From Candidatus Peregrinibacteria bacterium (GTDB taxonomy: Bacteria > Patescibacteriota > Gracilibacteria > UM-FILTER-43-11): DNA of 35,032 bases. Both the position numbers and the translations under genes were made by a program. Shown here piece after piece: positions 17,710-23,720 of this stretch; position 1 is the first letter of the stretch; every line of letters starts with the position of its first letter. A model generated the notes under the pieces. The model searched no databases. It worked only from the letters and a program-made list of their open reading frames with translations, and was not told where the DNA came from. The stretch lies in assembly GCA_016934215.1 (NCBI GenBank), contig JAFGTE010000008.1, forward strand, positions 1 to 35,032, given 5' to 3'.

Positions 17710-18903
17710 ATGTCAGAACCTCGTTTCTACAGTCACAACAGCGTTTATCGTCAGGAAGGTGAAGATTACCCGACTTATTCCCTGGATGAAATTCAGGCCC
17801 GTTATCTGCCTGATATTAAGAAAGATGGAATAGTAGCTTCCGACATGGATGGTTCGATGTTCTACAATGATCTGGGGATTCACGTTTTTTTGGAGCAATT
17901 ATCTCAGCCTCAGGGGTGGGTGAAAGATCCGGGTGAGTTTGCCAGACTTCTCACGCCTGATAGTTATCAAGTGATTTTGAAAATGGCTCTTGCCGGTCAG
18001 GTGAAAGATATTTCCAGAGAACAAGCCGAAATTTATGTAAAATTGAGGGATGATTGTATTGATCTTTATAAGGCTATTTATGCGGTAAAAAGAAAACGCC
18101 TTACCATTGAGAACCCCTTAGTCAATGAATTTGCCCGTAAGATGCTTGAGCTGGATCGAATGGGCATGGAAATGGAACAGGTTTTTATGATCGGGAATGA
18201 TGGCCAGATCCTTAGTCGCACCCGTTTTTTCGTAGAGCATAATCCCTGGATGGTAACACAAATCACTACTGCTGCTATGCGCTCCCATGAAAATGGAGGT
18301 CGTTATGTAGATCTAAAAGTATATCCAAAAAATGACGCAGTTGCTGAACAACGAATAAGCGAACATGATTTGGAACCCCTAAGATACGACAAACAAATTG
18401 TAGTTGTTGAAGGAACCCGACACATTATTCAGAATCTTTTTGATCATGGTAATGGAGTGCCGGTTCGTATTGTCACTACAAATCTGAAAGATATTGCGGA
18501 AGCTGCTATAGAAGCCTCCCCCTATTATAAGGGCCTTCTTGATCAGGATTGTGATGGAAAAAGTCCGATTCTTGCTTCTAAACTGGTGCGCAATGATTAT
18601 GGAAAAATGGGGCAGAATTTTTGGAAGCTGCCGATCCTTGGTGGTGTCAAGGGGGTCATGCTACGAGATTTAGAAGAAAAAATGAAACGTAAAGTAAGAG
18701 TGGCTATTGCTGATTCACCCACTAATGATGGAGCTATGGTGACCCTTACTCTTCGCAATGGTGGCGTGGCATTTTTTGTAAGAAAATATCAGGAAGCTTT
18801 TGAAGAGACCCGAAACAGATTTAAAGTTCTTATCGATGGCCCTGAAGGTGTCCGCAGGTCAACAGGGGATAAGGATGTAGGCGATCGAATTTTTTACGTC
18901 TAA
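17710..18903 (+). CDS. HAD-superfamily hydrolase, substrate unknown
   Basis: A 397-residue cytoplasmic protein with haloacid-dehalogenase motifs. Motif I is D45-M-D47-G in VASDMDGSMF, where Asp45 would form the aspartyl-phosphate and Asp47 act as acid/base. Motif II is the Thr pair in VRIVTTNLKD. Motif III is probably the Lys in ILASKLVRND or GVKGVML, and motif IV is IADSPTNDGAM. Between motifs I and II there are about 200 residues, a large cap. The general scheme resembles phosphoserine-phosphatase-like enzymes, but the protein is longer and the substrate cannot be named. It is a single gene with its own consensus promoter. A weak hairpin terminator may follow its stop. Confidence 0.8.
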   Translation: MSEPRFYSHNSVYRQEGEDYPTYSLDEIQARYLPDIKKDGIVASDMDGSMFYNDLGIHVFLEQLSQPQGWVKDPGEFARLLTPDSYQVILKMALAGQVKDISREQAEIYVKLRDDCIDLYKAIYAVKRKRLTIENPLVNEFARKMLELDRMGMEMEQVFMIGNDGQILSRTRFFVEHNPWMVTQITTAAMRSHENGGRYVDLKVYPKNDAVAEQRISEHDLEPLRYDKQIVVVEGTRHIIQNLFDHGNGVPVRIVTTNLKDIAEAAIEASPYYKGLLDQDCDGKSPILASKLVRNDYGKMGQNFWKLPILGGVKGVMLRDLEEKMKRKVRVAIADSPTNDGAMVTLTLRNGGVAFFVRKYQEAFEETRNRFKVLIDGPEGVRRSTGDKDVGDRIFYV

Positions 18904-18965
18904 GATGACTATAATGGACAGGATGTTTAGGTGCTAATTTGAACCCGACAACTTGACACATTAAG

Positions 18966-18994
18966 CCCTTTATTTAGACAAAGGGTCATTTTTG
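18966..18994 (+). terminator. weak candidate terminator after the HAD gene
   Basis: CCCTTT (18966-18971) and AAAGGG (18980-18985) form a 6-base stem with an 8-base loop, followed by TCATTTTTG. The stem is short and the U-run interrupted. It could instead be part of the control region of the S-layer gene, since the loop contains one of the repeated TAGACA motifs. Confidence 0.35.
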
Positions 18995-19043
18995 ACATAT
19001 TTGTCTTTTTTCGCAAGCAAAAATATGAAACAAATGTCTAAAT
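18972..19043. repeat. inverted repeat ATTTAGACA / TGTCTAAAT upstream of the S-layer gene
   Basis: A perfect 9-base inverted repeat occupies 18972-18980 and 19035-19043. AGACAAA (18976-18982) and TTTGTCT (19000-19006) form a second, overlapping pair. TTGACA occurs at 18953 and 18992, but without a convincing -10 element at standard spacing. This may be the promoter and operator area of the S-layer gene. Confidence 0.4.
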
Positions 19044-19080
19044 AAACAGTTATATATGGCGAACATAAGGGAATTCTGAT

Positions 19081-19314
19081 AACCTGTCGGAGAATAGTTA
19101 AAAATCCGGGAAAGGCTTAGTATAAGCCCCGCAGGCATGGAAAGTAGACATGACTTCATCTTAAAAAAGGTGGCGTCGTGCCTGCGCGTCATGCTGTGCA
19201 AGAGGCGCTGATCCTTAACAACATAGGAGGTAGACACGGGATCTAATGTCTATCTAAACTAATCGAGATCCCGCTTTGCGGGATTACAATTTCGGCCATT
19301 ATATTTATTGGCCG
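19081..19314 (+). ncRNA. structured leader RNA of the S-layer gene, or free-standing small RNA
   Basis: This gene-free segment holds several perfect complementary blocks. Hairpin GGCTTA-gta-TAAGCC occupies 19114-19128. Stem CGCAGGCA/TGCCTGCG joins 19130-19137 to 19179-19186; its loop contains CATGAC (19149-19154), which pairs with GTCATG (19188-19193) beyond the stem and gives a possible H-type pseudoknot. TAGACA/TGTCTA (19231-19236 with 19247-19252) encloses CGGGATCT (19237-19244), complementary to AGATCCCG (19266-19273), a second pseudoknot geometry. That last strand can alternatively form ATCCCGC-ttt-GCGGGAT (19268-19284). CGGCCA/TGGCCG closes a hairpin at 19293-19314. I could not match it to tmRNA, RNase P, SRP, 6S or a known riboswitch. 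The remaining 19315-19457 shows no gene. Confidence 0.4.
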
Positions 19315-19457
19315 CATAGGGCGGCGCAGTCTCGGCGCGCTCTATACCTATTTTTATATTGCGAAGAAATTCAGGCTCTTTTGTTTAAGGCAATCGAACG
19401 CCATTTATTAGTAATTAAACTTCGCGACCTTTTTATTAACTAATACCCATACAAATT

Positions 19458-22400
19458 ATGGATATTGCTCTTAAGTTGAAACGAGCTGTGGCTACGTTGG
19501 CAGCTGGCGCACTTTTTGTGTCTTCTGCTGGTGTTGCTATCGCTCAGACGTTCAACGACGTACCTACCGATGCTTGGTATTACGATTACGTTGAACAACT
19601 AGTCGACGATGGAGTGATTGATGTTGCGGACAATTATCGTCCTGCTGACGCACTCAATCGTGCCGAACTAGTAAAGATTGCTATCACGGCAATCGACGGG
19701 CTGGCTGGCTATGAAGCTCCTGCCACCCCAACTTTTGACGACGTCCCTGCTGACGCATGGTTCTTCGACTATGTCGAAGCTGCTGTCCAGCTCGGAATCG
19801 TCAACGGTTATACCGATGCCAGCGGTAACCTTACCGGTTACTTTGGTCCTGGCGACACGGTAAACCGTGCTGCCGCTACCAAGATCCTGGTCAACGCTTT
19901 CAGCGTTCCAACTGATCTTGATCCAGGCAGTGTATTCCCAGATGTAAAATCCGGCGACTGGTTCCATGACTATGTTATTACCGCTTACAACCAGAGTGTT
20001 TTAGACGGTTATGACAATGGTTACTTCGGACCAGCTGACGCTGTGACTCGTGCTCAGGTTGCAAAGCTTGTCGTTAACTCTCAGAACCCTGTAGAAAGGG
20101 CTGTTTCCGGTGAGGGTGAGGGCGAAGGCGAAGGCGTAGGTGAATCAGAAGGAGATATTGAAGTATCTCTGAACGATGACACAGCCGCTTCTTCTACTCT
20201 TCCTCTTAGTGCTAACGGTGTAGCGCTTGCTTCCTTCGACGTTACTGCTGATCAGGATGACGTTTATGTTTCTCAGCTGGTTGTCACCCGTGGTGGTGTC
20301 GGTCAGGCTGATGACTGGGCAAACCTTTATCTTTACGACGGTGCACAACGTTTAACCACGGGTCGAACCGTTAACAACGACACCAACACCGCTACCTTCC
20401 CTCTTAAATTAACAGTTGAGGCTGGTACGACTACCACCCTTACTTTAGTTGGTGATGTTTCCGCTACCGCTCTTGGTTCTAACCAGCACTATTTCTATAT
20501 TGCTTCTGCCGCTAACGTGACGAGTAACGCTCAGTCTGTCAGCGGTGACTTCCCGGTTGCCGGTAACACCTTCACCATGGGTAGCGTTTCTGTTAACACC
20601 GTTACGACGGCTCCCGGAACCGCTCCTTCTAAGGTCACTATTGGTGCAGCTGATGCTGAAATTGCCAGTGTTAAATTAACCGCTGGCGCTCAAAACGACA
20701 TTGCTCTTCATCAGCTCGCTCTGACCAACGGAGGAAGCCTTTCTTCTGAAAAACTCGTTAACCTCCGCCTGCTCCGCGGTACCGACGAAGTCGCTACGGC
20801 TGACGGTTTTGTAGGTGACGTTGTTACTTTCGTCCTCGACACTCCTTATGTCATCGACGAAGGTCAGACAAAAACTTTCTACGTTAACGCTGATATCGAC
20901 GGTGGTCGTTCTTCCGACACTATTATCCTTTATCTCGATGAAGACACCGATGTGATTGCTGTTGACCAGCAATATGGTTTCGGTGCTGCTGTTACTAATA
21001 ACTTCACTCAGGCTTTGGCTAACATAGTCGCGCTTGAGGGCGGTGATGTAACGGTTGTTGATAACGGTCCTGCCGCTTCTCAGATCGCGCAGAACGCTAC
21101 CAACATCGAGCTTCTGAACTTCTCTATGACGGCTGCCCGTGACCTCACGGTCCGCGACACCTTCATTCAGATCGATATTCAGGATCAGGCTAGTGGCACA
21201 GGACCTGATGTAACTACTATCGGTACTGATACTGCTGCTATCACTGGTGCTGCTATCAATACAGCAGGCAACTTCTGTGTTGTTGATGACACAGGTTTCG
21301 TTGTTGGTGATATGCTCCAGATTGCAACTGCTGCCGGTACAGAGTACGCTATTATTTCAGCTATTGATTTAAATAACTCTGGTGCTGGTGCTCCTTGTGC
21401 TGCCGGTACTGATGATGAGATCACTACGAACTCTACCACCGGTTCCACCATTGCTAACGGTGCCGCTATTAACGAAGTCAACCCATACGACTACGTTAAG
21501 AACGTCAAGTTGGTTGATCTTGATTCAGGAAGCACCTTGGCTGGTCCTATGACCGATGCCAACGCTGGCGCAACTCTCGTTGAGGGTGGTGCAGGTGTTC
21601 CTGATTCTTATAACAAGGTTCACAGCGAAGATTACGAACTCACCGGTAGTGATACCAGTCATCTTTCTGTACAGGCTGACCTTGACCAGAACATGGCTTC
21701 CGGTTACCAGGTGCGTGCTCAGGTACGCTACTCTGATGGCGTAAGCGCTTCTTCTTACATCAAAGATCTGGCTGCTAATGAGTTCGTGACCACTTCTAAT
21801 GTTATCGGTGCTGGTGCTACGGCACTTGCCGGTGACTTTATGATCACTGCCAGTAACAGCCTGGCTGTTTCTAAGGCCGCTACGCCAACTTCACAAAGTT
21901 ATGTGAAGGGTGACACCAACGTTCCAACGATCGGTATAGCTCTGGCTGCCGGTGATGCCGGTGATATTCTTCTAAAACGCCTGAGTGTACGTATTTACGC
22001 TGACGACGATGGTGTTATGGATGATATTGGTGCTACGACTCCTTCTGGTGATATTGCCGCTGACACTCTTGTTTCCAGTATTACCCTTTATGACGGCAAC
22101 GATGTTGTCGCAGGTCCAGAAAGTCTGAACCTGGTTGATACCGGCGCAGCCGGATTTGTTGCTGAAACCGGTGATTACTACCGTGCTCAGTTCGATGATC
22201 TTGACATCATGATCGATGCCGGTGCTACCAAGACTCTGACGGCTAAAGTCAACCTTCTGAACACGGCTACCGCTCAGATGTATCTGGCACTTGATGTCAA
22301 TCCATCTGCTGATATCATCGCTGAAGATGATGATGCTAATACCATTGTCGCTTCCGGTGGTCAGCTCAATTACGCTTCTGCGCCAAATCCACTTATCACC

Positions 22401-23720
22401 ATCCTGACTTCCGGTGGTCTGCAGGCTTACGCAGAAGGTAACCCTGATGCTGATATTCTTGTTGCCGGTGCCAGTGAACAGCTCGTCGCTAAGTATCGTT
22501 TCCGTGCTAACGACGAAGACTTCCAGGTCAAAAAGCTGACCATTGCTAATGATAATGCAGCTACCAATGCTGTGTTCGGCAATGACCTTGATACAGGTCC
22601 CGCTGTTGCCAGCATTACCCTTAAATATCCTGATGTGAACGGTGTGACTCAGACCAAGACCAATCCTCTGTCTGGTGGCACGGCTAAGTTTGCCGGTATG
22701 GATTTCTATGTTCCTGCCGGTGAAGACGCCTTCCTGGAGGTTTACGCTAACGTAAACACGGCTGCTGCAGTCGGTGAGGCATTGTCCGGTCAGTCTTTCA
22801 GACTGGGTATCCAGAATATCAACAATGACATCACTACGTTCGAGGCTATCGGTCAGTCATCTTCTACCAACCTGAATTTTGGTGATACCGGCGGAGCTCT
22901 CGGTGAAACAACCAAAATTTCCAACTACACTGATATCAGTACCTTTGTTGTCCGTAAGACGGTACCTACGTTTGCTAACGTAAGCGCTTCTGAAAGTCTG
23001 GCAAACGGTATCAAGACCCTGATGAGCTTCAGCGTCACTGCTGACAGCGCTGGTCCGGTCAGTTTTGGTCGTATTGTTCTCAATGTCGATCAGGCTGATA
23101 GCGACGATGCCAGTCTCAATACTGCTAATTATCAGCTGTATCGGGGTTCCAGTCTGTTAAGTACTGTCAACATCTATGATTCTGTCGGAGATCTTTCTGC
23201 TGCCAGTCTTGGTGGTGCTGCTGCTGACCAGAATGAGGACGTTATTGTTTCCTTCAATTCAGAAGAATCAGTCAATGCAGGCTCAAGTCAGACGTACAGT
23301 CTGAAAGCGCTTGTCAGTGGTGCTGATTCTGATGACAGTGTTACAACGACAATTGTTACGGGTGATGAAGCTACTCCGGTTGCTGGTATTCTTGGAACAG
23401 CCGTTTGCGGTAATGCTAACGACAAACCATGTTCTACCGGTAACGCTAATACAGGTCAGATCTATGAAACAGCAGCCAACGAAGCTCTGTTCACGGCAAG
23501 CGCTACTGAATTCTCTGATACGAATACCGCTAACCGTAACATTATCTGGTCTGATAAGTCCGCTAAGAACCACGCTTACCCAGCTATTACAGCCGGCACG
23601 GTTACCGCTCCGGTTTCCGCTTCTGACTGGAACGCCAGTAACGAAGGTCCTTACGACTGGACAAACGGATATCTCTTAGATATCACCGAACTTGAACCTC
23701 ATACCCTTTCAAAGAACTAA
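19458..23720 (+). CDS. giant S-layer protein with three N-terminal SLH domains
   Basis: A 1420-residue secreted surface protein, presumably the main S-layer subunit. A signal peptide (1-30, ending VAIAQ) is followed by three SLH domains at about 31-90, 91-152 and 157-212 (starts TFNDVPTDAWYYDYV, TFDDVPADAWFFDYV and VFPDVKSGDWFHDYV), which should bind a wall-linked polymer. A Gly/Glu linker, GEGEGEGEGVGESEG, comes next, then about 1,150 residues of Thr/Ala/Asp/Gly-rich beta-sandwich repeats. One segment near 575-675 carries a Cys pair (NFCVVDD and GAPCAAG), and another Cys pair is near 1315-1325. The C-terminus has WSDKSAKNHA and a DWTNGYLLD block that I recall from other Patescibacteria surface proteins. 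Codons look strongly biased, as expected for high expression. The ATG lacks a Shine-Dalgarno sequence; a 554-base leader precedes it and a strong terminator follows. Confidence 0.92.
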   Translation: MDIALKLKRAVATLAAGALFVSSAGVAIAQTFNDVPTDAWYYDYVEQLVDDGVIDVADNYRPADALNRAELVKIAITAIDGLAGYEAPATPTFDDVPADAWFFDYVEAAVQLGIVNGYTDASGNLTGYFGPGDTVNRAAATKILVNAFSVPTDLDPGSVFPDVKSGDWFHDYVITAYNQSVLDGYDNGYFGPADAVTRAQVAKLVVNSQNPVERAVSGEGEGEGEGVGESEGDIEVSLNDDTAASSTLPLSANGVALASFDVTADQDDVYVSQLVVTRGGVGQADDWANLYLYDGAQRLTTGRTVNNDTNTATFPLKLTVEAGTTTTLTLVGDVSATALGSNQHYFYIASAANVTSNAQSVSGDFPVAGNTFTMGSVSVNTVTTAPGTAPSKVTIGAADAEIASVKLTAGAQNDIALHQLALTNGGSLSSEKLVNLRLLRGTDEVATADGFVGDVVTFVLDTPYVIDEGQTKTFYVNADIDGGRSSDTIILYLDEDTDVIAVDQQYGFGAAVTNNFTQALANIVALEGGDVTVVDNGPAASQIAQNATNIELLNFSMTAARDLTVRDTFIQIDIQDQASGTGPDVTTIGTDTAAITGAAINTAGNFCVVDDTGFVVGDMLQIATAAGTEYAIISAIDLNNSGAGAPCAAGTDDEITTNSTTGSTIANGAAINEVNPYDYVKNVKLVDLDSGSTLAGPMTDANAGATLVEGGAGVPDSYNKVHSEDYELTGSDTSHLSVQADLDQNMASGYQVRAQVRYSDGVSASSYIKDLAANEFVTTSNVIGAGATALAGDFMITASNSLAVSKAATPTSQSYVKGDTNVPTIGIALAAGDAGDILLKRLSVRIYADDDGVMDDIGATTPSGDIAADTLVSSITLYDGNDVVAGPESLNLVDTGAAGFVAETGDYYRAQFDDLDIMIDAGATKTLTAKVNLLNTATAQMYLALDVNPSADIIAEDDDANTIVASGGQLNYASAPNPLITILTSGGLQAYAEGNPDADILVAGASEQLVAKYRFRANDEDFQVKKLTIANDNAATNAVFGNDLDTGPAVASITLKYPDVNGVTQTKTNPLSGGTAKFAGMDFYVPAGEDAFLEVYANVNTAAAVGEALSGQSFRLGIQNINNDITTFEAIGQSSSTNLNFGDTGGALGETTKISNYTDISTFVVRKTVPTFANVSASESLANGIKTLMSFSVTADSAGPVSFGRIVLNVDQADSDDASLNTANYQLYRGSSLLSTVNIYDSVGDLSAASLGGAAADQNEDVIVSFNSEESVNAGSSQTYSLKALVSGADSDDSVTTTIVTGDEATPVAGILGTAVCGNANDKPCSTGNANTGQIYETAANEALFTASATEFSDTNTANRNIIWSDKSAKNHAYPAITAGTVTAPVSASDWNASNEGPYDWTNGYLLDITELEPHTLSKN

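Follow-up and report, generated by a model that had tools for sequence, protein, structure and literature searches.

The stretch of Candidatus Peregrinibacteria DNA analyzed here (35,032 nucleotides, hereafter the window) encodes an S-layer protein of 1420 amino acids with three SLH-domain stretches (19458-23720, plus strand; Pfam SLH, 1.9e-27), and the preceding open reading frame ends at position 18903. We asked what is carried by the gap of 554 nt that lies ahead of this gene (18904-19457), whose length an earlier note on the sequence had given correctly. The start codon of the gene lies within a small hairpin, CCATA-CAAAT-TATGG (19447-19461), and lacks an apparent Shine-Dalgarno sequence; several relatives have a comparable CCATa...tATGG arrangement. 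On the 3' side of the gene, a GC-rich hairpin followed by a T-run, which a simple terminator scan did not call, suggests that the S-layer gene is a single-gene unit. A leader-trailer helix like that of pre-rRNA was dropped as a candidate, because the 3' flank contains no convincing complement.

The earlier note had read positions 19081-19314 as two nested pseudoknots, and the complements that it listed are all present. They comprise an 8-bp stem, CGCAGGCA (19130-19137) with TGCCTGCG (19179-19186), whose 41-nt loop can pair through CATGAC (19149-19154) with GTCATG (19188-19193), and a second stem, TAGACA with TGTCTA, which is extendable to AGGTAGACA (19228-19236) and TGTCTATCT (19247-19255) and whose loop can pair through CGGGATCT (19237-19244) with AGATCCCG (19266-19273). 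In 2000 dinucleotide shuffles of 19081-19314, the 8+6 pseudoknot pattern arose in 2.0%, the 6+8 pattern in 1.25%, and both in 0.35%. These frequencies and the minimum folding energy (z = -5.0 against 2000 dinucleotide shuffles) imply that the region is more structured than expected by chance. The minimum-energy fold leaves the 8-bp stem unused, and a fold with a nested hairpin, P1, has an energy of -44.3 kcal/mol versus -37.2 kcal/mol when the 8-bp stem is forced, with no bonus counted for a pseudoknot.

From 5' to 3' on the plus strand, the leader contains P1, a boxA-like element, P2, a lineage-specific hairpin, P3, P4, P5, and the start codon. Hairpin P1 (19134-19195) in the minimum-energy fold has an outer helix, GGCATGG with TCATGCT (19134-19140/19189-19195), and an inner helix, GTAGACATGAC with GTCGTGCCTGC (19144-19154/19175-19185). 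It is followed by the boxA-like element TGATCCTTAACA (19209-19220) and, just 3' of this, by hairpin P2 (19228-19255), which is formed by the extended arms of the second stem with pair probabilities of 0.86-1.0 and displays the loop CGGGATCTAA (19237-19246). The lineage-specific hairpin (19266-19284) pairs ATCCCGC (19268-19274) with GCGGGAT (19278-19284), and its 5' arm coincides with the partner strand of the second pseudoknot. Farther downstream are P3, CGGCCATTA with TATTGGCCG (19293-19314); the imperfect P4, ATAGGGC... with ...GCTCTATA (19316-19346), which recurs in individual folds; and P5 (19361-19425), in which GCGAAG (19361-19366) and CTTCGC (19420-19425) enclose an inner hairpin. No part of the leader matched an Rfam family at the gathering score, and a permissive scan returned weak matches only (E of at least 0.22), in agreement with the earlier statement that the arrangement fits no RNA class that could be named. 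Two other candidates in the leader were dropped: a T-box-like string, AAGGTGGCGTC, which is not kept in relatives, and a mini-ORF in P2, ATG-TCT-ATC-TAA, whose stop codon is not kept in relatives and which is therefore read as an arm of the P2 hairpin.

A possible extended -10 element of the S-layer promoter (TGA TAACCT, 19077-19085, plus strand) is weak and tentative, with no clear -35 element, and is kept in the alignment with G001, G002, and G010. Neither these three genomes nor the window genome yielded a TTGACA-type promoter. Such a promoter, TTGACA-17-TAnnnT, is present 144-386 nt 5' of boxA in 8 of the 12 leaders assembled for the family (see below). Because these eight relatives have a promoter upstream of boxA, a transcription start downstream of position 19314, which the earlier note had raised as an objection to its own proposal, looks unlikely. 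Upstream of the leader, a block running from ACAAATGTCTAAATA to CAGTTATATA (19027-19058) is kept in many family members, even where a clear promoter sits further downstream, and the promoter region also contains a 12-bp perfect inverted repeat, TTTATTTAGACA (18969-18980) and TGTCTAAATAAA (19035-19046).

Nucleotide searches recovered the leader from two genomes of the same genus, at 75-77% identity over long stretches, and matched it partly in three further genera. Protein searches contributed orthologues from the remaining family members, and 12 leaders were assembled from the 18 family genomes; G003, G009, G014, G015, G016, and G017 were left out, as no leader could be assigned to them. Folded individually, the leaders show the same plain architecture, P1-boxA-P2-P3-P5, in all 12 genomes, and every one is more stable than its shuffles, both from P1 through P2 (z of -2.4 to -6.8) and from boxA to the ATG (z of -3.1 to -7.2). 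The helices P1, P2, P3, and P5 contain double-sided changes, which affect most pairs of P3 and replace GCGAAG/CTTCGC of P5 by GCAAAG/CTTTGC in 3 of 11 genomes. Standard pairs amount to 52 of 55 in outer P1, 72 of 77 in inner P1, 84 of 88 in P3, and 66 of 66 in P5 (11 genomes each, G005 omitted), and to 48 of 50 in P2 (five pairs in ten genomes, G012 and G007 omitted), where the strands were aligned and picked by hand, which favors pairing; sliding the 3' arm as a control lowered pairing to roughly 20-50%. RNAalifold returned no structure from a gappy alignment of another group, family f5. The idea of a structured S-layer leader is borne out by conservation and covariation among relatives. The P2 motif is present in six family genomes, with no other match among 353 genomes of the class, and its loop, CGGGATCTAA, is nearly invariant across six genomes from four genera, even though much else varies among them. 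In the relatives, a search for a conserved pairing partner of this loop found none, and the loop may contact a protein or take part in tertiary structure.

The blocks that would form the two pseudoknots are not conserved in the same relatives. Only the window genome has all 8 bp between the P2 loop and 19266-19273; five relatives whose loop is nearly identical reach no more than 4-6 Watson-Crick pairs, which is at chance level. The stem formed by CGCAGGCA and TGCCTGCG is kept only within the genus, where G001 has a single A-C mismatch, and breaks down with two mismatches in the next genus (G010); P1 is kept in all 11 aligned genomes. Within the genus, TGYCTGC is able to pair with GCAGRCA or GTAGACA, so that an alternative pairing is possible at the level of the genus, not as a feature of the family. 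The hairpin proposed to compete for the last strand is present, but a switch between states found no support.

The most informative element of the leader is the boxA between P1 and P2, which the earlier note had missed. It is present in 12 of 12 family leaders, in versions that include CGCTCTTTAACA and TGTTCATTAACA. The gammaproteobacterial consensus, GYTCTTTAANA (PMC5725501), is matched exactly in G002, G011, and G012, and the window's copy, which lies 249 nt from the ATG, differs from it at two positions. The 16S rRNA leaders of the family likewise carry boxA, shortly 3' of a promoter-like sequence (TGTTCTTTAAAA in G010, TGTTCATTAACA in G011, and TGCTCTTTGAAA in G012); the rRNA boxA of the window genome itself was not seen because its 16S gene is missing from the assembly. 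Many family 16S genes (L073, L074, L075, L076, and others) match their model in two parts, with a break at model position 873/874, as if they contained an insertion or intron. Elsewhere in the window genome, a second intergenic boxA-like site, TTTGCTCATTAACAATC (L234; G000:C2:12176-12187, minus strand), sits 151 nt before a lipoprotein-like ORF of 453 amino acids, and the boxA pattern has 16 matches genome-wide versus 4 for the reversed pattern.

The association of boxA with S-layer genes extends to the class. Orthologues of the SLH N-terminus were detected in 117 of 353 class genomes (E of 1e-30 or lower), and a strict boxA pattern occurs within 1 kb upstream of 26 of 77 class orthologues, compared to a mean of 0.9 and a maximum of 3 in shuffled sequences and 1 on the reverse strand. 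The strict pattern is missed by about two thirds of the class orthologues; a matrix trained on the strict sites scores many of these above background, in a test that is partly circular. In a separate collection, the strict boxA was found upstream of 6 of 6 SLH genes from close relatives, at about 243-268 nt, and of 0 of 36 other SLH genes, which are mostly from Firmicutes, although one (L205) is labeled Peribacteria and an f5-like boxA would escape the strict pattern. The boxA sequences of family f5 have shifted, in the rRNA and in many S-layer leaders alike, to TC(A/C)TTCACA (Fisher p = 1.6e-4, from counts tallied by eye); for example, GTGAATGACGACGCTCCTTCACA in S-layer leader L147 resembles the f5 rRNA boxA with its flank, GTGAATGACTGTTGCTCATTCACA in G206. 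This parallel drift suggests that one shared protein binds both.

The candidate binding protein NusB is encoded by 16 of the 18 family genomes, including that of the window (search scope, family f1). By contrast to this persistence of NusB, termination factor Rho exceeded the curated cut-off in 0 of 18 family genomes and in 0 of 245 class genomes that are at least 90% complete, in a search in which 8 of 14 controls passed the cut-off. The only match near the cut-off among the 245 (507 bits, G297:C96:11727-12857) could be real or contamination. Weaker matches to the Rho profile, mostly of 30-55 bits in ORFs of about 460-560 amino acids, are presumably ATP-synthase subunits. In G191, G062, G163, and other class genomes, matches to the Rho profile run across numerous in-frame TGA codons, as would be expected if some members of the class have recoded TGA. 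A literature search on Rho in Patescibacteria returned nothing specific.

Judging from these sequence comparisons, the gap probably serves as the untranslated 5' leader of the S-layer mRNA and consists of a conserved chain of hairpins built around a boxA that would recruit NusB and S10 to RNA polymerase. It appears to be a real, new, and conserved leader RNA with boxA as its key part and with a function that we infer from comparison alone. By analogy with rRNA, NusB and ribosomal protein S10 (NusE) would bind the nascent boxA, stay on the elongating polymerase with NusG and NusA, and modify it, here in the service of a heavily expressed coat gene. Because Rho is missing, the classical use of boxA in blocking Rho is unlikely, and any benefit of the element would have to be Rho-independent. 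Such a benefit might consist of fewer pauses and faster elongation across the structured untranslated leader and the 4.3-kb gene, or the complex might act as a chaperone that folds the leader into a stable 5' structure and so shields an mRNA of very high abundance, or both. Nus factors have been proposed to promote co-transcriptional RNA folding through their tethering of boxA to the polymerase (PMC4807359). For a long leader that is not translated, such assisted folding, or suppression of pausing, is the likely gain. Whether an entire class of Patescibacteria that lack Rho employs the boxA-NusB/S10 elongation complex of rRNA as a dedicated and purely Rho-independent device for S-layer expression seems to us evenly balanced.

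Long leaders stabilize some S-layer mRNAs of other bacteria, and the conserved hairpins, at least five within about 330 nt, would also suit a 5' UTR that is mainly structural and mRNA-stabilizing, in which the boxA-like sequence is the site of another factor or an unpaired linker. We regard this explanation as unlikely, since boxA keeps its sequence throughout the class even where the hairpins have changed theirs, and since it agrees with the rRNA boxA found in these genomes, whose drift in f5 it parallels. A repressive role, in which NusB/S10 would block S-layer translation and couple production of the coat to the supply of ribosomes, has a precedent in E. coli, where boxA represses the translation of suhB (PMC5725501). 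We consider such a role improbable, because the suhB effect combines a steric block near the start codon with Rho, whereas this boxA is distant from the ATG and belongs to a lineage without Rho. Finally, the earlier note's model, in which two nested pseudoknots make up a new class of RNA and the last strand acts as a switch, although its complements are present, coincide rarely in shuffles, and retain alternative pairing within the genus, is very improbable given that the second pseudoknot is not conserved, the first stem is lost outside the genus, and the nested P1 is more stable and covaries.

A boxA that recruits NusB/S10 to the S-layer transcript would bear on the debate over whether boxA and NusB act mainly by blocking Rho or as an RNA-folding chaperone, which has been argued largely from E. 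coli. The persistence of boxA and NusB without Rho, and the presence of boxA on a coat-protein gene as well, imply that the two roles are separated in nature, so that these bacteria could show what boxA does where Rho is absent. The leader further suggests a way in which uncultured bacteria with reduced genomes could produce a single protein in very large amounts by means of the rRNA machinery, and it points to a boxA regulon to be sought across the Patescibacteria.

A literature search returned no report of boxA on S-layer genes or in leaders of this kind, and none of the papers covered brings S-layer, boxA, and antitermination together. The elements of the leader have counterparts in three known systems. 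With the stabilizing S-layer leaders of other bacteria it shares the form of a long, structured, untranslated leader. It resembles the boxB-boxA-boxC leader of rRNA antitermination, which acts through NusB, NusE (S10), NusA, and NusG, in its boxA sequence, which is also that of the family's 16S leaders, in the covarying hairpin P1 at the position of boxB, and in the strong promoter predicted upstream in most relatives, for which this genus has only a weak candidate; it differs in preceding a protein-coding gene, in the conserved hairpins that follow boxA, in belonging to a class without Rho, and in that no boxC was noticed by eye. It resembles the boxA of suhB and other mRNAs, which is known from experiment (PMC5725501), in that boxA lies on a messenger RNA. 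However, the sites in that set were chosen for lying no more than 50 bp from the start codon, and repression of suhB involves Rho and a boxA close to the ribosome-binding site, an arrangement that this locus does not have; the S-layer boxA is located 249 nt from the start, inside a long folded leader, in bacteria without Rho.
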